In this document: piece by piece, positions 10,293 to 55,417 of the stretch
How positions within the stretch are numbered: the stretch's first letter is position 1
Layout of the letters: each line of letters starts with the position of its first letter
DNA from: Akkermansia muciniphila
Lineage (GTDB): Bacteria; Verrucomicrobiota; Verrucomicrobiia; Limisphaerales; BJHT01
Reading direction: 5' to 3'
Length of the DNA: 64,000 bases
Assembly (NCBI GenBank): GCA_945861535.1
Contig: CAMAUZ010000015.1
Location: forward strand, 1-64,000
Notes under the pieces: model-generated
The model's database searches: none
Told to the model about the DNA's origin: nothing
The model's input: the letters and a program-made list of their open reading frames with translations, nothing else
Position numbers and translations under genes: made by a program

Positions 10293-10428
10293 CGGAGCGC
10301 GGCTGTGTCCCGCGCCGAGCGGGATCAGCCGCAGCGGCTCCGCCGGAAGTGACGGCCAGGGAGAAAACACAGCCTTCGCAAGCCTCGTCCGTGCTGCGGC
10401 TGGTCGCTGCGACACAGCCGCGCTCCGA
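10293..10428. repeat. Interspersed inverted repeat, family B (copy 1)
   Basis: GGAGCGCGGCTGTGTCC on the left and GACACAGCCGCGCTCC on the right bound the element. Inner arms carry AGCCGCAGCGGC and its complement. The same design recurs at 17138-17266, 31279-31408, 51885-52013 and 59919-60055, with a half copy at 55150-55185. With family D it accounts for most of the 422-nt gap before the next gene. Confidence 0.85.
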
Positions 10429-10509: not shown

Positions 10510-13500
10510 ATGAAATCTCTCAGCTTCGAATCTCTTGTGAAACCAGCGTCCGCCTCCCTGCGGAGCGCCGAGCATTGCTCGGCCTGTTCCGGTTTGGTCC
10601 GTCGTGCCGAGCAATGCTCGGCGCTCCGTGCTCGGGGCCGCGTCGGCACGGCCGCCCTCTTTATCACAGCGCTCCTGCTGGTGCTCGCCGCGTTCACTTC
10701 CCGCGCCGCCGCGCCGGACGCCGAGGCGCAGGAGATTCTGCGGACCGCCGGGGTGAAAGGTGGCATCGTCGTGCATCTGGGTGCGGGCGACGGGCGGTTG
10801 ACGGCGGCGCTGCGGGCGAACGCGAGCTATCAGGTTCACGGGCTGAGCACAGACGCAGCGACGATCCCGGCGGCGCGCGAGGCGATTCGCACGCTCGGCG
10901 TTTACGGGCCGGTCAGCGTGGACTTTCTCGACGGCAAGGAGCTTCCCTACATCGACAATCTGGTGAACCTGCTGGTCGCGGAAAATCTCGGTGGCGTGGC
11001 GATGAGCGAGGTGTTGCGCGTGCTGGTGCCGAATGGCGTGGCGCTCGTGAAACAGGACGGCAAATGGGTGAAGAGCGTGAAGCCGCGGCCGACGACGCTC
11101 GATGACTGGACGCACTACTACTACGACGCCAAGGGCAACGCGACGTCGCACGACCAGGTGGTCGCGCCGCCGGAGCGGTTGCAGTGGGTGGGCAATCCGC
11201 GGTGGTCGCGGCATCACGACCGCATGTCGAGCCTGAGCGCGATGGTGTCGGGCGGCGGGCGGATTTTTTACATCATGGACGAGGGGTCGCGCATTTCGAT
11301 CCTGCTGCCCGCAAAGTGGGCGATCGTCGCGCGCGACGCGTTCAACGGCACGGTCCTGTGGAAGCAGGCCATCAACCGCTGGCAGAGCACTCTCTGGCCG
11401 TTGAAATCCGGCCCGACGCAGCTCGCGCGCCGGCTCGTGGTGGATGGCGACCGCGTGTTGGTGACGCTGGGCATCGACGCGCCGGTGAGCCATCTGGACG
11501 CGGCGACCGGCAAGACCGTGCGGGTCTTCGAGAGCACGAAAGGCGCGGAGGAAATCCTGCACGTCAACGGCGTGCTCTACTGCCTCGTGAACCCGCGGCC
11601 GTGGGTGCTCGAGGACTTTGCGCCGAAGCACAACACCGGCGATCAGAAGCGTGTGGAGACGGAGTTCAACTGGGATCAGCAGCCGCGCGAACTGGTCGCG
11701 GTCGAGGTCGCGTCGGGGCGGCAGTTGTGGCGCAAGACCGACGTGAAAGTCGCGCCGCTCTCGCTGGCGACCGACGGGCAGCGGCTGATTTTTTACGATG
11801 GCGACAAACTCATCCAGCTCGATCCCGCGACGGGCACGCAGCGCTGGGCGGGGCCGCCCGCGCCGAAGCGAAAACTCTTCGAGTACAACTACGGCCCGCG
11901 CGTGGTGATGCACAGCAACGTGGTGCTCTACGCGGGCGGCGACGGCTCGATGAAGGGGCTGAATCTCGACTCGGGCAAGGAGCTGTGGAGCGCGCCGCAC
12001 AACAAGTCGGGCTACCGTTCGCCGGAAGATTTGATCGTGGCGGGCGGGCTGGTGTGGAACGCGGCGACGTTGTCCGGCGGCATGGCCGGCGAGTTCATCG
12101 GGCGCGATCCGTGGACGGGCGAGGCGAAGGTGCAGTTCCCGCCGGACGTGAACACCTATTGGTTTCACCACCGCTGCTACATCGCCAAGGCGACGGACCG
12201 GTTTCTCTTGCCGTCGCGCACGGGGATCGAGTTCGTGGACATCAAGGCGAAGCACTGGGACATCAACCACTGGGTGCGCGGCGCGTGCCTCTACGGCGTG
12301 CTGCCGTGCAACGGCCTGACCTACGCGGGGCCGCACAATTGCGCCTGCTATCCTGAGGCGAAGCTCGATGGCATGAACGCGCTCGCGCCCGGCACGATGT
12401 CCGCGCATCCGAAACCGCGCGCCGACGCGCAGCGCCTGGAACGCGGACCGGCCTTCGGGCAGGCCGTCACCGAACCCGACGCCGACGTGAACGACTGGCC
12501 GACCTATCGCCACGACGCCGCGCGCAGCGGCTACACGAGCCAGGCCCTCAAGCCCGATCTCGGCAAGGCATGGGAACTCAAGCTGGGCGGGCCATTGAGC
12601 GCGGTCACGATCGCGGCGGGGAAGCTCTTTGTCTCGCAGATCGACCAGCACACGATCCATGCGCTCGACGCGGTGACGGGGAAGCCGCAGTGGCATTTCA
12701 TCGCGGGCGGACGCGTGGATTCGCCGCCGACCTATTGGAAGGGCCGCGTGCTCTTCGGCGGCAAGGACGGCAGCGTGTACTGCCTGCGCGGCCGCGACGG
12801 CGCGCTGATCTGGCGGTATCGCGCCGCGCCGAGCGACCGGCGGCTCGGGGCCTTCGAGCAGGTGGAATCGGTGTGGCCGGTTCACGGCAGCGTGCTCGTG
12901 GAAAATGACACGGTTAGCTTCGTCGCGGGGCGCTCGATCTTTCTCGATGGCGGCCTGCATTTCTTCCGGCTCGACGCCGCGACGGGGCGCAAGCTGGTCG
13001 AGGAAAATTACGACGACAAAGATCCCGAGACGGGCCGCGACATCCAGGAACGCGTGAAGACGCTGCAAATGCCGGTCGGGCTGAACGACATTCTTTCGAG
13101 CGACAAAAAGTGGACCTACCTCCGCACGCAGAAGATCGGCGCGGACGGCAAGCGCGTGGACATCGGCCCGGTGTCGGGCGACGCGATCAAGCAGGGTGCC
13201 TCGCAGACGGGCGAGGGCGCGCACATTTTCGCGCCGATGGGTTTCCTCGATGACTCGTGGTTTCACCGCAGCTACTGGGTTTACGGGAAGAGCTTCGCGG
13301 GCGGGCACAACGGGTATTACCAGGCCGGCAAATACGCGCCGTCGGGCCGCATCCTCGTGTTCGATGAGAAGAACGTGTACGCCTACGGTCGCGAGCCGCA
13401 GTACTACAAATGGACCACCACGATGGAGCATCAGCTTTTCTCCGCGCCGAAAGACGCGCCCGTGGTGCCGGGTGTCGGCGAGGATGCGGCGCCCGCGGCT

Positions 13501-14586
13501 GGTCCGCGCGGCAAGGGCAAGCCGGGCGCAAACGTGGCGGCCGCAGCGGCCGGGATGGCCGTGACATTTCCCGATGCCGACAAGCTCGATCCGTCGGCCA
13601 AGCCGCTCACGATCGAGGCGTGGGTATCGCCAGATGCCAAGGACGGCGCGGTCGTTTCGCACGGCGGACCGCTGAATGGTTTTGCGCTGGTGATTCAGAA
13701 AGGCCAACCGGCGTTCCACGTTCGCAGCGCGAAGAATGCGGGCGCGGTCGTCGCGCCGAACGCGCTCAGCGAGGGCTGGCATCATCTGGCGGGCGTGCTC
13801 GCGGCGGACGGGCGGCTGCGCATTTTTGTCGATGGCAAACTGGCGGCCGAGGGCCACGGGCCGGGCTTGATCGCGGCGCGGCCGAAGAACCCGCTGCGCT
13901 TCGGATTCGAGGGCGGGATCACGGAGGACGGGCCGGTCGCGGCGTTCTCAGGCCTGCTGGATCACGTCGCCATTTATCATCGCGCGCTGACGGCGGCGGA
14001 ACTGCAGCACCACGCTGACCAGCCCAGCGAGGTCAAGCCGGAGCCGGGACTGGTTTTGTTCTGCACCTTCGACAAAGCGGACGCGCGGGACGAATCGGGT
14101 AGCCGCGCGCACGGCGTAATGACGGGCGTGCAATCGGGCAAGGGCAAGGTCAACGCGGGCTTGGTGTTCCGTCCGCCGAAACCCGTGAACGTGATCACGG
14201 CGAAGCTGCCCGCGCCGCGCAATTCGGGAATGTTCGTGCAACAGAACTGGCAGCGCTACGTGCCCGTCGTGACGCGCGCGATGGCGATGGCGGGCAAGAC
14301 GATTTTCCTCTCGGGTCCGCCGGACGTGGTGGATGAAGAGTACGCGTTCGAGCGGCTGACACAGAAGGACAAGTCGATCCTGCCGTTGCTCGCCAAGCAG
14401 GACGCAGCCTTGGATGGCAAAGGCGGCGGACGCTTGTTCGCGGTCTCGACGGAGAGCGGCGGGCAGAGCGCGGAGATTGATCTGGAGAGTCCGCCGATCT
14501 GGGACGGGATGGCGGTGGCGCAGGGGCGGCTCTACATCGCGGACATGGACGGCGTGGTGCGCTGCTACGGGCGCGCGAACGAGTGA
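10510..14586 (+). CDS. Large secreted PQQ-type beta-propeller protein with a LamG domain
   Basis: A 1358-residue exported protein. Residues 42-67 are the hydrophobic secretion signal. Residues 75-185 resemble a Rossmann/SAM-binding fold (VVHLGAGDGRLTAAL) and may be a degenerate methyltransferase domain. Two blocks of PQQ-like beta-propeller repeats follow (about 200-620 and 660-980), with recurring aliphatic-tryptophan units such as TGKPQWHF and DGALIWRY. A concanavalin A-like/LamG domain lies at about 1015-1165 (TIEAWV, WHHLAGVL, RIFVDGKLAAEG). The last 180 residues are again propeller-like. Such proteins are common in Verrucomicrobia and Planctomycetes; no enzymatic activity can be assigned. 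Residues 18-40 are encoded by a perfect inverted repeat placed just before the signal sequence, an unusual insertion that keeps the frame. Confidence 0.85.
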   Translation: MKSLSFESLVKPASASLRSAEHCSACSGLVRRAEQCSALRARGRVGTAALFITALLLVLAAFTSRAAAPDAEAQEILRTAGVKGGIVVHLGAGDGRLTAALRANASYQVHGLSTDAATIPAAREAIRTLGVYGPVSVDFLDGKELPYIDNLVNLLVAENLGGVAMSEVLRVLVPNGVALVKQDGKWVKSVKPRPTTLDDWTHYYYDAKGNATSHDQVVAPPERLQWVGNPRWSRHHDRMSSLSAMVSGGGRIFYIMDEGSRISILLPAKWAIVARDAFNGTVLWKQAINRWQSTLWPLKSGPTQLARRLVVDGDRVLVTLGIDAPVSHLDAATGKTVRVFESTKGAEEILHVNGVLYCLVNPRPWVLEDFAPKHNTGDQKRVETEFNWDQQPRELVAVEVASGRQLWRKTDVKVAPLSLATDGQRLIFYDGDKLIQLDPATGTQRWAGPPAPKRKLFEYNYGPRVVMHSNVVLYAGGDGSMKGLNLDSGKELWSAPHNKSGYRSPEDLIVAGGLVWNAATLSGGMAGEFIGRDPWTGEAKVQFPPDVNTYWFHHRCYIAKATDRFLLPSRTGIEFVDIKAKHWDINHWVRGACLYGVLPCNGLTYAGPHNCACYPEAKLDGMNALAPGTMSAHPKPRADAQRLERGPAFGQAVTEPDADVNDWPTYRHDAARSGYTSQALKPDLGKAWELKLGGPLSAVTIAAGKLFVSQIDQHTIHALDAVTGKPQWHFIAGGRVDSPPTYWKGRVLFGGKDGSVYCLRGRDGALIWRYRAAPSDRRLGAFEQVESVWPVHGSVLVENDTVSFVAGRSIFLDGGLHFFRLDAATGRKLVEENYDDKDPETGRDIQERVKTLQMPVGLNDILSSDKKWTYLRTQKIGADGKRVDIGPVSGDAIKQGASQTGEGAHIFAPMGFLDDSWFHRSYWVYGKSFAGGHNGYYQAGKYAPSGRILVFDEKNVYAYGREPQYYKWTTTMEHQLFSAPKDAPVVPGVGEDAAPAAGPRGKGKPGANVAAAAAGMAVTFPDADKLDPSAKPLTIEAWVSPDAKDGAVVSHGGPLNGFALVIQKGQPAFHVRSAKNAGAVVAPNALSEGWHHLAGVLAADGRLRIFVDGKLAAEGHGPGLIAARPKNPLRFGFEGGITEDGPVAAFSGLLDHVAIYHRALTAAELQHHADQPSEVKPEPGLVLFCTFDKADARDESGSRAHGVMTGVQSGKGKVNAGLVFRPPKPVNVITAKLPAPRNSGMFVQQNWQRYVPVVTRAMAMAGKTIFLSGPPDVVDEEYAFERLTQKDKSILPLLAKQDAALDGKGGGRLFAVSTESGGQSAEIDLESPPIWDGMAVAQGRLYIADMDGVVRCYGRANE
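10561..10628. repeat. Perfect 23-bp inverted repeat inside the start of a coding sequence
   Basis: Arms 10561-10583 and 10606-10628 are exact reverse complements with the core CGAGCATTGCTCGG. Only 68 nt long, it is translated as residues 18-40 of the propeller protein, between the initiator region and the signal peptide. Confidence 0.9.
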
Positions 14587-17137: not shown

Positions 17138-17266
17138 GGAGCGCGGCTGTGTCCGCCGAGGACCAGCCGCAGCGGCCGCGAAACCGTGCATGCCCCCGTT
17201 GGATTCCGAGGCGTCCCTTGCGGCCAACCCGCTGCGGCTGGTGCTCCGCGCACACAGCCGCGCTCC
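17138..17266. repeat. Family B repeat (copy 2), first part of a composite element
   Basis: Bounded by GGAGCGCGGCTGTG and CACAGCCGCGCTCC. It is preceded by CACAGAGACGCGATGGACAC and followed by family C copy 2. The whole block 17092-17790 resembles 51838-52480 in the same order and orientation, so the pair behaves as a single long duplicated element. The gap holds no gene. Confidence 0.85.
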
Positions 17267-31964: not shown

Positions 31965-32663
31965 TCAAAGCTTCGGTGCCAAATCCACGCGCGCCTTTTT
32001 CAGCGCTTCCTCCAGCGCCTCGCGCTTGGTTTTCGCGGCGTCGATCCACGCGATGACCGCGCTGGGCATGGTGCTCACAGTGGCGCGCTCGACGCCGTCG
32101 AGCTTGGCGACGGCTTGGTAGGCGGCGTAGCGGCAGCCCTTGCAGTCCAGCACGCCGATGGGGATTTCCACCTTGGCCAGCTTGTCCGTCGGCACGGTGG
32201 ACCGCGCGGTGACGGTGAACGTGTTTTTGGAAGCCTGGCCGATAAGCGCGCTGAGACGCTCGATGATTTTTTCCGGTGCGGGCGGCTGCTTGGGCTTCGC
32301 GGTGGGGAAGAGCTTTTCCAATTGGAAGCGCAGCGTGACCTCGGCCTGCGCGGCATCGAGGCTGACCAGCGCCACGTCTGGCACAGTCTTCAACACTTCG
32401 CGCAAGTCCGTCTCGCGCTCCGGTGCGCTCAGGCCGATGAGCCGGTACGTGCCGGTCTGCTCCTCGGCGAGCGCCGCAGCCACGGACAGCAGCATCGCGA
32501 CCAGCCATGCGCCAAGGCCCTGGAGCGCCGGTCTCCGACCCGGCGCGAACCGAGAACCGCGACCCGCCGGGTCGGAGACCGGCGCTCCGTCCGCACTGTG
32601 TCCGTTCCGCGTCACCCCGCCCCCCACCATTCTGTGCCCATCATTTTGTAAAAATGTCTTCAT
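31965..32663 (-). CDS. Exported protein with an HMA-like C-terminal domain
   Basis: A 232-residue protein. A hydrophobic secretion signal lies at residues 50-67 (GAWLVAMLLSVAAALAEEQ). Residues 85-160 form a beta-alpha module without a clear family. Residues 165-232 resemble a heavy-metal-associated domain: Cys174-x2-Cys177 in VLDCKGCRYAAYQAV, followed by GVERATVSTMPSAVIAW. Residues 26-48 are encoded by a perfect inverted repeat, an odd insertion before the signal. Its ATG overlaps the stop of the upstream DUF1592 cytochrome (ATGA, 32660-32663), so the two are co-translated, and this fixes the start ahead of the repeat. Metal or redox involvement is inferred from the CxxC motif. Confidence 0.7.
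   Translation of the reverse strand: MKTFLQNDGHRMVGGGVTRNGHSADGAPVSDPAGRGSRFAPGRRPALQGLGAWLVAMLLSVAAALAEEQTGTYRLIGLSAPERETDLREVLKTVPDVALVSLDAAQAEVTLRFQLEKLFPTAKPKQPPAPEKIIERLSALIGQASKNTFTVTARSTVPTDKLAKVEIPIGVLDCKGCRYAAYQAVAKLDGVERATVSTMPSAVIAWIDAAKTKREALEEALKKARVDLAPKL
32522..32588. repeat. Perfect 24-bp inverted repeat inside a coding sequence (family K)
   Basis: Arms 32522-32545 and 32565-32588 are exact reverse complements, core GCCGGTCTCCGACCCGG. It is translated as residues 26-48 of the HMA-like protein. A half copy follows trmL at 45286-45308. Confidence 0.9.
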
Positions 32664-35275
32664 CGCGTTTGGAAAAGCTGGCTCTGCGTCAGCTCGTGAA
32701 TCAGTGAGCGCACGCCGCCGCCCTGTTTCTGCGGGTTCGCCACGAGGGCGGCGATCTGCTCGCGGTCGCTGAAGGCGAGTTCGCGGCCGGTGGCGTACAC
32801 CGCGAACTGTTGCGCGAGGTTCTTCAGGAGCAGCGGCGAGTCCGCAGCGGCGAGCGCCTGAAACTCGCGGATGCCACCGAACTTCCGCTCGTCCGGCAGC
32901 ACGCCGCTCGCGTCCACCTTCGGACCAAGCGTGAACTTGATACTGATGAACGGGTCAATCCCGCCGCGCGGCGCCGGCTCGCCCTCGCCGATGGAACGGT
33001 AGCGCGTGCGATAGCCGCCGATGACATCGAAGCTCTCCAGCGCAAAACCCGGCGGGTCCAGCTTCGCGTGACAGCCCGCGCAGGACGCGTTGTTGCGATG
33101 CTTGTCGAGCAACTCGCGGATGGTCGTCGCGCCGCGCACGTCCGGCTCCACGGCGGCGATGTTCGGCGGCGGCGGCTCCGGCGGCTGGCCGAAGAGGCGG
33201 TCCATCACGAACGCCCCGCGCGGCACGGGCGAAGTCGTGGTGCCGTTGGCGGTGATTTTCAAAATCGCGCCCTGCGTGAGAAAACCGCCGCGCGGACAAT
33301 CCGCCGGCAGCGGCACACGGCGAATCTGCGCGCCGGTCACGCCCGCGATGCCGTAGTGCTTGGCGAGCTTCTCATTCACCATCACGAAGTCCGACTTCAC
33401 CAGGTGCGTCGCGTCGAGATTGCGGTCGAGCAGTTCGCGAAAATAGGCGCGCGTCTCGGCCACCATCGAGTCCTGCAAATACGGATTGAATTCGGGGTAA
33501 AGCTTCTTGTCCGCGTCGTTCGCAGCGATGGCCCGAAGCTTGAGCCATTGGCCGAGGAAGTCCTCGACGAAGCGCTCCGACTTCTTGTCCTGGAGCAGCC
33601 GCTCGACTTCGCCGCGCAGCGTCTTTGCGTCGCGCAATTTGCCCGCGGCGGCCAGCTCGGCGAGCCGCGCGTCAGGCGTGGAATTCCAGAGGAAATAGGC
33701 GAGGCGGCTGGCGAGCGCGAAGTCATCGAGCTTTGCGACCGGCTCGACCAAGTAGAGAAAATCCGGCGAACACAATGCCGCGCGATACGCCCAGCGCATC
33801 GCGGTCTCGAAGCAATCGCCCGCCTTCAACCGCTCCCCGACCTTCGTCACGTAATCCTTCCGCACTTCCGCCGACACCGGCCGCCGAAACGCCTTCGGCA
33901 AAAAGCTCGCGAGCAACCGGTCCGCGTCGGCGAGCGCGTTCGTGCTTTGCACGGTCCACAGCCCCTTGTCCGGGTCGGGACGATTCTTGCCCGCGCCGAT
34001 CTGGCGGACCTTCTTGCGGGCAGGCGGCGTCACGCCGGGATTGGCCTTGGCATCAAACTCCACCAGCGGCAAATCGCCGAACAGCACGCGGTGCGCGACC
34101 GGCGGCCAGACCTCATGCAGCGGCCCCTCGATGTCCAGCCAGTCGCACGCGATGCCCGGCCCGGTGAACGCCAGCGCGTGGCCTTTGCGCGCGTAGTTCG
34201 CGGCGGGCGCGAGCGACGCGACGTTGAAGCCGATGATTTCGTTGTGATTCAGCCAGGTGACCAACTCGTGCTCCTTCGACTCGAGCGACGGCGCATCGTA
34301 GTAGCCCAGCACGTAGCTCGGGTGCTGCCCGCCACGCCCGTCGCCGGTGAGTTGCACTACGGAAAGCCGCGCCGCCTCCGTGCCACGCGCCGGGAGAACT
34401 TTCCCTTTGTCCCATTGAAAGGCCCACACCGAGGTGCGCACGCGATACCGGCCGGGATAAATCGTGACGTGCTCGATGAAATACGGACTCAGCGACTCGT
34501 CCTCGTGACGGAAGAGGCCGGTGCTGCTGTTCGTGGTGAAAATGCCCAACCGCTCGTGCGCGCCCTGATCCAGATGCGTCCACTCGCCCGCGGGCGGGAA
34601 GTCCGGGTCCGGCTGCTTGTTCTTCAGCAACACGCCATCGCCATTCATCACGACGTGCGTAACGAAGCCGCCCGCATTCATCAGTGAGATGCGGCGAAGC
34701 TGCCGCGTCGGCGCGTCGGGCCGGGTGGCAGTGGCGAGTTCCAGCGTGTGCTCGGCGGCCTCGACATACTTGGCGAGGTTCACATGCGAGATGTCCAGCG
34801 CGTCGCTGTTCTTGTCGAAGCCGTGCGCCGAGCCGTCGGCGGGCAGATTCCCCTGCAGTGCGATGCCCGGCATGTCGAAGAGGTCGCGAATCGTGTTCTC
34901 ATACTCCGCGCGTGTGAGCCGGCGCAGCCCCGTGCGGCCCGCCCCCGCGAGCTTCGCCTGCTCCGCCGCGAGCAGCGACTCGCGTAACGCCTTCACCACC
35001 GCCACCGTGTCCGCGACAGGCGGACGCGCCGTTTTCTTCGGCGGCATTTCGCCCGACTCGATGCGGTCATGCACCTTCACCCACCGCGCGAAATTCTCCG
35101 CGTTGGCGAAGTCCGGCTTGAGCGCGGTGAGATCGAGGTTGCCCTTCTTCGTGTCCGCGTCGTGGCACTCGATGCAATGCCGGGAGAAAAAGGCCGGCGG
35201 CGGAAACTCCGCGGCGTGGGTGGCAACGCCGGTGACGAAAAGCACCAAGCTTCGGAAAAGCCCACTCGCCATCAT
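32660..35275 (-). CDS. Planctomycete-type cytochrome with DUF1587/1595/1592/1588/1585 domains
   Basis: A secreted protein of about 871 residues typical of Planctomycetes and Verrucomicrobia. A signal peptide (MASGLFRSLVLFVTGVATHA) is followed by a cytochrome c-like domain with the heme motif CIECH near residue 35. DUF1587 starts at RTGLRRLTRAEYENTIRDLF, DUF1595 and DUF1592 follow in the middle (RLLASFLPKAFRRPV, then ALASRLAYFLWNSTPD), and DUF1588 includes NASCAGCHAKLDPPGF, which holds a second CxxCH. DUF1585 closes the protein (LAQQFAVYATGRELAF). The function is not established; a role in extracellular electron transfer or polysaccharide oxidation is often proposed. The usual DUF1552 partner is missing; the next gene is the overlapping HMA-like gene. 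The start could also be 35299. Confidence 0.88.
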   Translation of the reverse strand: MMASGLFRSLVLFVTGVATHAAEFPPPAFFSRHCIECHDADTKKGNLDLTALKPDFANAENFARWVKVHDRIESGEMPPKKTARPPVADTVAVVKALRESLLAAEQAKLAGAGRTGLRRLTRAEYENTIRDLFDMPGIALQGNLPADGSAHGFDKNSDALDISHVNLAKYVEAAEHTLELATATRPDAPTRQLRRISLMNAGGFVTHVVMNGDGVLLKNKQPDPDFPPAGEWTHLDQGAHERLGIFTTNSSTGLFRHEDESLSPYFIEHVTIYPGRYRVRTSVWAFQWDKGKVLPARGTEAARLSVVQLTGDGRGGQHPSYVLGYYDAPSLESKEHELVTWLNHNEIIGFNVASLAPAANYARKGHALAFTGPGIACDWLDIEGPLHEVWPPVAHRVLFGDLPLVEFDAKANPGVTPPARKKVRQIGAGKNRPDPDKGLWTVQSTNALADADRLLASFLPKAFRRPVSAEVRKDYVTKVGERLKAGDCFETAMRWAYRAALCSPDFLYLVEPVAKLDDFALASRLAYFLWNSTPDARLAELAAAGKLRDAKTLRGEVERLLQDKKSERFVEDFLGQWLKLRAIAANDADKKLYPEFNPYLQDSMVAETRAYFRELLDRNLDATHLVKSDFVMVNEKLAKHYGIAGVTGAQIRRVPLPADCPRGGFLTQGAILKITANGTTTSPVPRGAFVMDRLFGQPPEPPPPNIAAVEPDVRGATTIRELLDKHRNNASCAGCHAKLDPPGFALESFDVIGGYRTRYRSIGEGEPAPRGGIDPFISIKFTLGPKVDASGVLPDERKFGGIREFQALAAADSPLLLKNLAQQFAVYATGRELAFSDREQIAALVANPQKQGGGVRSLIHELTQSQLFQTR

Positions 35276-35427
35276 GAACCGCAGATTTAGCCAATGCACC
35301 CGCCTACGACGCGCCCCAAGGCCAGCCGCCGCAAGTCAAATTGATCTGGATTCGCCAGCCCAACCCCGGAGAGGCGTCACGAATCGCCCGGAGTCGCACA
35401 CTTCGTGAAACGCGCGCCAAGCCGGCG

Positions 35428-35515
35428 CAACCCCGTAGGGGTTCCCCATGAATAGCCAGGGGTCGCATGCCCCCTGGACCACGCACCGAGCGGGCACAAC
35501 CCCGGCGGGGTTGCC
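35428..35515. repeat. REP palindromes left of the transposase
   Basis: Three short hairpins: CAACCCCGTAGGGGTT, CCAGGGGTCGCATGCCCCCTGG and CAACCCCGGCGGGGTTG. Matching units are found on the other side of the transposase, some with GAATAGCC or GGCTATTC spacers. This is the expected arrangement of REP sequences around a RAYT gene. Confidence 0.85.
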
Positions 35516-35538
35516 CCATGCGCGGCGGACGCTACCCT
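35511..35538 (+). promoter_or_regulatory. Possible promoter of the Y1 transposase, overlapping a REP
   Basis: TTGCCC (35511-35516) at the edge of the last left REP, a 16-nt spacer, TACCCT (35533-35538), then ATG after 6 nt. REP folding would hide the -35 element, a possible self-limiting control. Confidence 0.35.
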
Positions 35539-35544
35539 CGCTGC

Positions 35545-35991
35545 ATGGCAACCTACACCGACATCACCTACCATCTTGTCTTCGGCACCAAGCACCGCGC
35601 GCGAGTTCTGGACAAGCCGCGGCGAGACGACCTCTATCGTTTCATCTGGGGAATATTGAAAGCCCGCGACTGCCATTTGTATCGGATTGGCGGGGTGGAA
35701 GATCATGTTCACATCCTGACTTCGCTGCATCCCTCGGTGGCACTGGCCGACCTCGTGAAGGAAATCAAAACCGCCACTTCCGCATGGATCAAAGGGCGGC
35801 AGGTGTTTCGCTCGTTCGAACATTGGCAGGAGGGCTACGGGGCTTTCACGGTAGCGGCGGAAGCGCGGCCAGCATTGATCGAATACATCAAGGGACAGGA
35901 GGCGCACCACGCGCGGGAGAGTTTCGTGGACGAACTGCGGCGCATGGTCGAGACCGCGCATCTGACCTGGCAGGCGGACCACCTGCCCTGA
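35545..35991 (+). CDS. REP-associated / IS200-like Y1 transposase (RAYT)
   Basis: A 148-residue HUH single-strand transposase of the Y1 class. The metal-binding HUH motif is EDHVHIL with His54 and His56. The nucleophile is probably Tyr114 in LIEYIKGQEAHH. The opening TYTDITYHLVFGTKHR is the usual first strand. It is flanked by palindromic REP units on both sides rather than by long inverted ends, and no TnpB is nearby, which fits a domesticated REP-mobilising enzyme better than an autonomous IS200. The protein is full length with no frameshift, so it may be active on the REPs of this genome. Confidence 0.9.
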   Translation: MATYTDITYHLVFGTKHRARVLDKPRRDDLYRFIWGILKARDCHLYRIGGVEDHVHILTSLHPSVALADLVKEIKTATSAWIKGRQVFRSFEHWQEGYGAFTVAAEARPALIEYIKGQEAHHARESFVDELRRMVETAHLTWQADHLP

Positions 35992-36504: not shown

Positions 36505-36632
36505 GGAAAGTCCCGGCAGGGACGACAGAGGCGGGACGACGCACCGCATCTTTCGTCCCTGACGGGACTTGGTTCGCTGCCGACGCGGACCCAGCACTGA
36601 AGTGCTGGGCTATTTTCTTTCGCCCGCTGGGC
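36505..36632. repeat. 128-nt direct repeat, left copy
   Basis: Begins GGAAAGTCCCGGCAGGGACG and ends TCTTTCGCCCGCTGGG. It contains its own inverted pair (TCCCGGCAGGGACGA mirrored by TCGTCCCTGACGGGA) and CCCAGCACTGAAGTGCTGGG. It is matched almost base for base at 36835-36962. Confidence 0.85.
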
Positions 36633-36640
36633 TGAAGGCG

Positions 36641-36724: not shown

Positions 36725-36834
36725 CTCGGGGAGAATCCCAGTTTCTTGCAACGGCCTGTGTCCGCGGGCGCAGTCCCGCAGGGACGACCGAAAATAGCCC
36801 AGCACTTCAGTGCTGGGTTGGTGGCCGGGGAACC

Positions 36835-45281: not shown

Positions 45282-45285
45282 ACGC

Positions 45286-45308
45286 GCCGGATCGGAGATC
45301 GGCGCTCC
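45286..45308. repeat. Half of a family K palindrome
   Basis: CGCCGGATCGGAGATCGGCGCTCC resembles the right arm of 32565-32588 with minor changes and no partner arm. Confidence 0.55.
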
Positions 45309-45402
45309 GTGGGAAGGGACGCCAGGATCCGACGCCACCGCGCGAATCGCGCTCATCACTCCCGGGCTGCACCCCCGCCGACCACCCCGATCTGCGCCCC
45401 CG

Positions 45403-51837: not shown

Positions 51838-52480
51838 GAACCACCAAGACGCGATGAGCACAGAGCAGCGAAGCCGCAACCCAAGGAGCGCGGCTGTGTC
51901 CGCCGAGGACCAGCCGCAGCGGCCTCAAGCCCTCGCAGGCACACATTGGAATCAGAGCCGTCCCTTGCGGACACCCTGCTGCGGCTGGTGCGCCGCGCAC
52001 ACAGCCGCGCTCCGGGAGAAATCTTCGCGGCGCGCGCGGATTTCTCCGCTGCTGTGGTCGCCAGCCGACGAGCAAACAATTATTGCCAACACGTGGCTCT
52101 TGGTCCCGGAGGGACGCCGCAGGAAATTAGCCGGGGGCAAGCCCGCGCAGCGGGCGCGGCCCCCGGTTGCGCCGCCGAACGGGCCATGCCCCAGCGGGGC
52201 ATCGAAGAAGTTTTTGGCAGCGTCCGCCCCGCTGCGTTTCCGCCATCCCTCGGCACCGCGGGCCTTTTTCTTCGATGCCCCGTTGGGGCACGGAGCCAAG
52301 CGGCACCGCTTCCGGGGGCGGCGTCCGCTGCCGCGGACTTGCCCCCGGCTAATCTCCTCCGGTGTCCCGCCGGGACGGAAAACGGGCGGTCGCGCCCAGC
52401 CCCGGAAAACCCCCGGCGTACGAATGGCGTTCCAAACTCGTCCAGTTGCGGCTCCGCCGCGGTTTGTCCATCGAGCGTCT
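51838..52480. repeat. Composite repeat (family B + family C), second copy
   Basis: Contains family B copy 4 (51885-52013) and family C copy 3 (52103-52376). Flanks are shared with 17092-17790: a leading GACGCGATG-type stretch and a trailing GCGTTCCAAACTCG (52427-52440). It fills almost the whole gap between the DUF1501 and PSD1 genes. Confidence 0.85.
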
Positions 52481-55116: not shown

Positions 55117-55417
55117 GGCCAAATTCGTCCGGCTGTCTCCCTCCCCCACGGAGCGCGGCTGTGTCACAGACCAGCCGCAGCAGCCCGGTGGACAAGCGGC
55201 GTTTCGAACTATTCCGTAACTGCGGTTTTGCGGACGCGCTCCGGGGCAGCTGCGGCGGGCACCCGCCCGCGGACGCAGCAAGCTGGAGCGCAGCGCGATG
55301 CCCGCCGAACCAACCGCCCCGCGCGGACGGCCGCACTCCGCGAGAGTCGCGCACCACGCCGTCCGGCGTTAACCCGCTTGCCCTCGCCGACGCCGTCGGC
55401 AGGATGCCGCCGCTTTC
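55117..55417. other. Gene-free interval with a half family B repeat
   Basis: GGAGCGCGGCTGTGTCACAGACCAG-type left half of family B at about 55150-55185 (no right arm). The rest shows no supported feature. Confidence 0.6.

Follow-up and report, generated by a model that had tools for sequence, protein, structure and literature searches.

A probable REPIN-type mobile hairpin in the signal-peptide region of an HMA-like gene of a Verrucomicrobiota genome

What is a perfect 24-bp inverted repeat doing within the reading frame of a predicted exported protein, and is it translated? The question arises at positions 32522-32588 of a 64,000-nucleotide stretch of contig CAMAUZ010000015.1 (hereafter the window). 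A preliminary description made from the sequence alone had proposed that this was a second coding palindrome, fixed inside its frame, which the ribosome reads through from a start codon overlapping the preceding stop.

The palindrome and its host gene

The inverted repeat is exact. Its two 24-nt arms (32522-32545 on the plus strand and 32565-32588 on the minus strand) are complementary at 24 of 24 positions (100 %) and lie 19 nt apart, forming together with a spacer (32546-32564) that differs from copy to copy a 67-bp REPIN-like element belonging to a dispersed family. The left arm consists of a GGAG(CGC) foot and a mini-hairpin, GCCG-GTC-TCC-GAC-C-CGGC, and the right arm is identical to it in sequence on the other strand. 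Two perfect stems of ≥ 24 bp with loops of ≤ 60 nt are present in the window, as against four dinucleotide shuffles of the window in which no perfect stem was found, not even of 14 bp, and the repeat can be taken as real. Folding of the mRNA strand gave −65 kcal/mol compared to a shuffle mean of −37.3 kcal/mol (z −7.5), and Rfam returned no family match at the palindrome site. The element contains no stop in any of the six frames and spans codons 26-48 of a minus-strand ORF (31965-32663), placing the palindrome within a reading frame as had been proposed.

This ORF encodes a predicted HMA/MerP-like exported protein of 232 aa, an assignment upheld by a Pfam HMA match (5.7e-7, residues 172-224) with a resemblance to MerP that falls below the NCBIfam cut-off (36.2 bits, cut-off 92.55). 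The hydrophobic core of its signal peptide, LVAMLLSVAAAL, is encoded by codons 54-65 (32469-32504, minus strand), and an arginine pair encoded by the element lies about 10 residues ahead of the core. The ATG start (32663-32661) overlaps the TGA stop (32662-32660) of the upstream minus-strand ORF (32660-35299), which from its domain matches encodes a DUF1592/DUF1588/DUF1587 planctomycete-type cytochrome protein. The ATGA overlap (32660-32663, minus strand) is therefore as first described, and recurs in four of five orthologs; no clear Shine-Dalgarno sequence was visible by eye upstream of the ORF. Comparison of the mature part with the congeneric ortholog in genome G001 gave dN 0.081 and dS 0.438 over 166 codons, indicating that this part of the gene is under purifying selection and therefore that the gene has not decayed. 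The ORF runs for 184 codons beyond the element. Codons 3-24, which precede the element, were considered as a copy of another known repeat and rejected as such, BLAST against the collected loci returning only four short matches at chance level.

A protein search with the HMA-like protein returned matches in 9 of 58 genomes, its own genome counted. Two of these (G003 and G024) are owed to copies of the element lying in other genes and one (G007) covers the HMA domain alone, with the remaining five (G034, G020, G038, G025 and G001) being orthologs which share the upstream gene. In G034, G020, G038 and G025 the HMA-like gene starts at the same ATGA and leads directly into the signal peptide, making these empty sites with n-regions of 3-8 residues compared to the 53 residues of the window gene. 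In the G025 ortholog a frame change separates the signal peptide from the HMA part, marking it as a broken or misassembled copy. The G001 ortholog (81 % identical across the alignment, its start lying 10 nt past a TAA) carries a different palindrome between the start and the hydrophobic core. This palindrome (L195:2036-2104, CCCGCAGATTCA...TGAATCTGCGGG) is a member of another dispersed family with 81 match rows in the window's own genome (G000) and 94 in G001, both strands counted, and we infer that the n-region of the HMA gene has been invaded twice, by unrelated repeats. The window palindrome itself is missing from all five orthologs. The description of it as fixed in the gene was not borne out; it is a copy of a mobile repeat.

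A dispersed repeat family and its association with RAYTs

Searching with an 18-base half arm (≤ 2 mismatches) identified 36 matches in the genome to which the window belongs and none with a reversed-pattern control. At the loci concerned about 16 complete inverted pairs were counted by eye, along with solo arms such as that just 3′ of an ORF end within the window (45282-45310, minus strand). The arms are conserved, the spacers vary between copies, and the two arms of one element often differ in subtype (GATCTCCGATC versus GGTCTCCGACC). Among 431 arms, obtained at ≤ 6 mismatches in a search that favours the consensus and surely takes in chance matches, one inner arm pair was G-C in 176, A-T in 79 and C-G in 16 (65 % Watson-Crick overall), in line with each single arm forming a small REP-type hairpin of its own. 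An inverted doublet of conserved REP-like arms around a less conserved spacer, a predicted long hairpin, dispersal in many copies, solo arms and linkage to a RAYT are features which the family has in common with REPINs and their RAYTs as presented in the available portion of the original account (Bertels and Rainey 2011, PMC3116915).

Across the order, the half arm at ≤ 1 mismatch was found in 80 of 245 genomes with a maximum of 170 matches in one genome, although by our own count the reversed control gave one match in each of 12 of the 245, and some of the single-match genomes may be chance. The full element occurs in at least 111 stretches of named genomes; among the 111 listed, 95 are titled Verrucomicrobia or taxa within, 9 ‘bacterium’ and 7 Proteobacteria. 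The seven loci in MAGs titled Proteobacteria (RFSE01...), along with one locus titled Akkermansia muciniphila (CAMCFN010000046.1), carry titles which may be wrong. Of the 118 complete pairs in L083-L193, 117 were measured; the element is exactly 72 nt long in 61 of these and a multiple of three in 73, lengths which may reflect either selection for keeping the frame or a length set by transposition. Target-site duplications were not detected at these 117 elements (2-mers 2 versus 8.1 expected, 3-mers 2 versus 1.33, 4- and 5-mers 0), a result that fits single-strand insertion and proves nothing.

The window contains a Y1_Tnp gene (35467-35991) which was considered as a mobiliser and rejected, as it scores as IS200/IS605 (69.9 bits, cut-off 55) and not as a RAYT (25.7 bits, cut-off 80); no arms were found in its 3.3-kb locus. 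A first set of Y1 transposase or RAYT loci also appeared negative, with arms (≤ 2 mismatches) in just 2 of 39, before the matching clade was found. Locus L244 has a Y1 transposase ORF with an outward-facing arm on either side and a further pair of arms in frame inside it. Such proteins are named REP-associated tyrosine transposase (RAYT) by NCBIfam (NF047646, an equivalog with a cut-off of 80 bits), three of the seven scanned scoring above the cut-off (L209 83.3, L258 82.1, L288 83.1) and four at 67-77 (L256, L286 and L287 at 75-77, L244 at 67.5). The motifs seen are NHVH, WQ or WE, and YIESNP, YIENNP, YIEYNP and similar. A RAYT structure model had its best PDB match in 4ER8, which shows E. 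coli TnpAREP together with a REP hairpin (E 5.6e-8 and a TM-score of 0.49 on query length; sequence match 4.3e-12).

In a tree of 40 RAYTs the eight REPIN-bearing rows group together with the RAYT of the window's own genome, L209 (support 92/88). Arms (≤ 5 mismatches) lie within 250 bp of 8 of the 9 RAYT rows of this clade compared to 4 of 31 others, and inside the RAYT gene itself in 7 of 9 compared to 0 of 31; L285-L288 were picked because their matches broke off at the expected insert site, and without those four the counts for internal arms are 4 of 5 and 0 of 31. The internal element is read openly in six of the nine, with L260 having a stop elsewhere and L285 being broken at the site. 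In the structure model the insertion falls in a low-confidence loop between helix 106-127 and strand 158-161 (mean pLDDT 56 for residues 131-140 and 51 for residues 141-150). L209 lacks an internal element, and the repeats to either side of it are of a sibling family only, the one found at 10562-10627 of the window. A specific RAYT flanked by the repeats was found for one RAYT clade in other genomes. At the level of whole genomes the link between RAYT and arms appears loose: at least 16 half arms, read by eye, are present in 8 of the 9 genomes that carry a clade RAYT and in 13 of the 236 without a recognised one, and G110, a genome with a clade RAYT, has zero arms at ≤ 1 mismatch. The inputs to the Fisher test are these counts read by eye, with clade membership known solely for the 40 RAYT rows.

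In-frame copies and probable translation of the element

REPs are named for their extragenic location. The present family is mainly extragenic also: from 118 complete pairs in named loci, 11 of which lay too close to a locus end, 107 were tested and 8 fell in a frame that is free of stops and shows coding signal to either side, compared to 41.9 % of 3,000 random positions, in a test that misses copies near gene ends. Of the 16 complete pairs in the window's own genome our reading places 6 in frame, their hosts being the HMA gene, an O6-methylguanine methyltransferase, a UvrD-type helicase, a WD40/PSCyt1 protein, a patatin-like protein and an N6 methylase. Domain matches enclose or flank the element in five of the eight (ValS, DUF1015, D-amino-acid dehydrogenase, a GH115 enzyme and a NagB-like protein, the last scoring under curated cut-offs). 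From these sequences we regard insertion of the family inside genes as rare but real. The strongest evidence is a lone ValS gene (L116:3256-6279, CAIXUG010000056.1, MAG YR3_bin-1454), the sole match above the ValS cut-off in the sequence available for G247, in which the in-frame REPIN amounts to a 25-residue insertion relative to 1GAX, chain residues of the latter advancing from 366 to 373 as the query runs from 385 to 417. At L183 the element stands immediately ahead of the GFTLIELL of a prepilin-like leader. A further in-frame element lies within a 443-aa ORF (L202:689-2017, G024), followed directly by another repeat-like peptide (STINHQLLL); this ORF had no Pfam or NCBIfam match at 1e-5.

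Returning to the window gene, in-frame ATG, GTG or TTG codons ahead of the hydrophobic core occur at positions 1, 12, 13 and 17, all of them upstream of the palindrome, and none lies between the palindrome and the core in this frame. The next ATG (codon 57) and the next GTG (codon 61) both fall within the core. A start downstream of the element would cut into the hydrophobic core, and therefore the palindrome should be translated. Read-through from the ATGA start, as put forward in the preliminary description, is thus very likely, being supported by the conservation of that start and the lack of a usable start ahead of the core.

Alternatively, the palindrome might be a 5′ untranslated element, insertion having moved the functional start downstream and the region ahead of the signal peptide now forming leader RNA. 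Codon usage would be compatible with such a leader, the score being −2.2 for codons 1-24 and −3.7 for the element compared to +71.6 for the rest of the ORF; being neutral to slightly negative, these values provide no support for translation by themselves. CTG codons at positions 54, 58 and 59 also favour it, as does the caution, in the accessible text of a survey of intragenic REPs, that many REPs at ORF N-termini are actually extragenic (Di Nocera 2013, PMC3733652). However, initiation at codons 57 or 61 would leave too little signal peptide, the ATGA is conserved in all but one of the orthologs, and other copies such as that in ValS are unavoidably internal. We therefore consider an untranslated leader unlikely. 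The very stable fold just past the start of a coupled gene, with its perfectly matched arms, might instead suggest a regulatory hairpin of the HMA-like gene, an attenuator or a control of translational coupling retained for its function. A gene-specific hairpin of this kind was rejected on its absence from all five orthologs examined; the same sequence occurs at unrelated places in the genome and the stem pairs perfectly in both DNA strands, like that of any REPIN, so that this explanation is very improbable. The stem-loop is also G+C-rich, as would befit an intrinsic terminator, or an artefact of assembly. No T-run was seen by eye after the stem on the coding strand and the gene continues past the element under purifying selection, speaking against a terminator, and independent copies in many assemblies speak against an artefact; we give either next to no credence.

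Most probably the palindrome is a copy of a mobile REPIN-type hairpin, inserted in frame in the signal-peptide n-region of the HMA gene and translated from the ATGA. As a non-autonomous hairpin of two inverted REP-like arms, each with its GGAG(CGC) foot and own mini-hairpin, the element would have been moved in trans by a RAYT, an HUH, single-strand transposase, and have entered the n-region of the MerP/HMA-like gene. The ORF would have stayed open because the element lacks stops in every frame. Ribosomes initiating at the conserved overlap would then translate the element, perhaps with some slowing at the hairpin, to give a precursor with the extended n-region, and the insert would be removed along with the signal peptide leaving the mature protein unchanged. 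At N-termini it has been difficult to decide whether intragenic REPs are really translated; in the window gene the conserved ATGA and the signal-peptide core pin down the start. The lone ValS copy makes translation through a long and nearly perfect stem testable.

The GGAG foot, sibling families and known systems

The foot consensus of the arms is GGAG, which departs from the GT[AG]G (or GYAG, GYRG, GTMG) of GTAG-tagged REPs. A sibling REPIN at 10562-10627 of the window shares the GGAGCGC foot but differs in its inner stem; its family has 85 match rows in the window's own genome on both strands. This copy lies in the signal-peptide n-region of a plus-strand ORF (10510-14586) encoding a 1,358-aa PQQ-repeat/LamG protein. 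It is probably the first case to which the palindrome studied here had been counted as the second; the two belong to sibling families in the same kind of place and are not independent kinds. GGAGCGC is the commonest heptamer in the 300-bp flanks of the RAYTs, being present at 33 of 40 loci (9.2 expected from shuffles) and on both sides at 22 of 40, compared to 1.4 % of random window pairs, and the inner stems vary among these loci. Single heptamers show no enrichment in the window (40 versus 36 expected), yet at six separate places they stand as close inverted pairs. We take this pattern to indicate a group of GGAG-footed REPs on which this RAYT family would act.

The differences from described systems lie mainly in the foot and the location. 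The REPINs of PMC3116915 are, in the portion available, placed in extragenic space, in contrast to the 6 of 16 in-frame copies here, and the GGAG(CGC) foot also sets the present family apart from them. REPs in frame inside the tnpAREP gene are reported for TnpAREP subclass 2.4, corresponding to Bertels group 4 (Quentin 2018, PMC6006769), and an initial view of in-frame REPs inside RAYT genes as new was therefore rejected. The RAYTs described here, judged by motifs alone, closely fit the subclass 2.4 motifs NH[IFV]H, WQ and YIxNNP given there. The feet published for this subclass are GT[AG]G, unlike the GGAG found here, and a table in the same paper appears to place the variable insertion between beta3 and alphaC, as against helix 106-127 and strand 158-161 in our model. 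The foot of class 3 is given as CnGA in that source. A C precedes GGA in 66 % of the present arms, which read as CGGA would fit this foot; the RAYTs here carry the class 2.4 motifs without those of class 3. The GGAG foot thus appears to lie outside GT[AG]G and its variants as described in the available text of PMC6006769, with the CnGA of class 3 counting against its novelty.

Intragenic GTAG/CGTC REPs are, according to the accessible part of PMC3733652, commonest in Opitutus terrae and Rickettsia conorii. These likewise are REP dimers encoding 20-30 residues in unrelated genes, DNA-repair genes included, and O. terrae belongs to the same phylum; the family described here is set apart from them by its different tag. 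Rickettsia palindromic elements, likewise palindromic repeats translated in frame within genes, represent a functional analogue only, as from the text available they are approximately 150 bp long, encode a conserved peptide and occur in another phylum (PMC10969869). No description of the arm sequence or of its family was found among the matches listed in a search of the open-licence literature. For REPs, RAYTs or palindromic repeats in Verrucomicrobia only PMC3733652 was on point among the open-licence matches listed, judged on titles and the starts of abstracts. REPs in genes, RAYT genes included, are therefore known; the present family differs in its GGAG(CGC) foot and in occupying n-regions of export leaders.

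It is possible, and we propose it tentatively, that the Verrucomicrobiota have a GGAG(CGC)-footed RAYT/REPIN superfamily of their own, separate from the GT[AG]G REPs, with protein-compatible elements for which export-leader n-regions and a loop of their own transposase act as safe harbours and whose hairpins are routinely translated. If so, the favoured length of 72 nt, or 24 codons, and the absence of stops in six frames would represent an evolved protein compatibility, and the translation of selfish hairpins would extend to a lone aminoacyl-tRNA synthetase gene. The GGAG foot across the RAYT family would provide a natural test of the foot's role in dictating cleavage. Where proteins predicted in this group contain peptides such as GAPVSDPA...RRPAL or ERRSPTR...AGSETGAP, annotation should treat these as marks of inserted mobile DNA and not as domains.

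A number of further repeats were observed. A third family (GGAGCGCGGCTGTGTC...) contributes inverted pairs with GGAGCGC feet at 10294-10426, 17138-17266, 51885-52013 and 55150-55242 of the window. A second group of heptamers stands beside the RAYTs, namely GGCTGGC at 27 of 40 loci (6.2 expected) and GCTGGCA at 24 (4.2 expected), which may represent coding sequence upstream of the search query. Two Rfam matches to Acido-Lenti-1 (36590-36633 on the plus strand and 36772-36817 on the minus strand) fall in a repeat-dense stretch near the IS200-like transposase gene (35467-35991), raising the possibility that the ‘sRNA’ family Acido-Lenti-1 is in turn a palindromic repeat of the dispersed kind.
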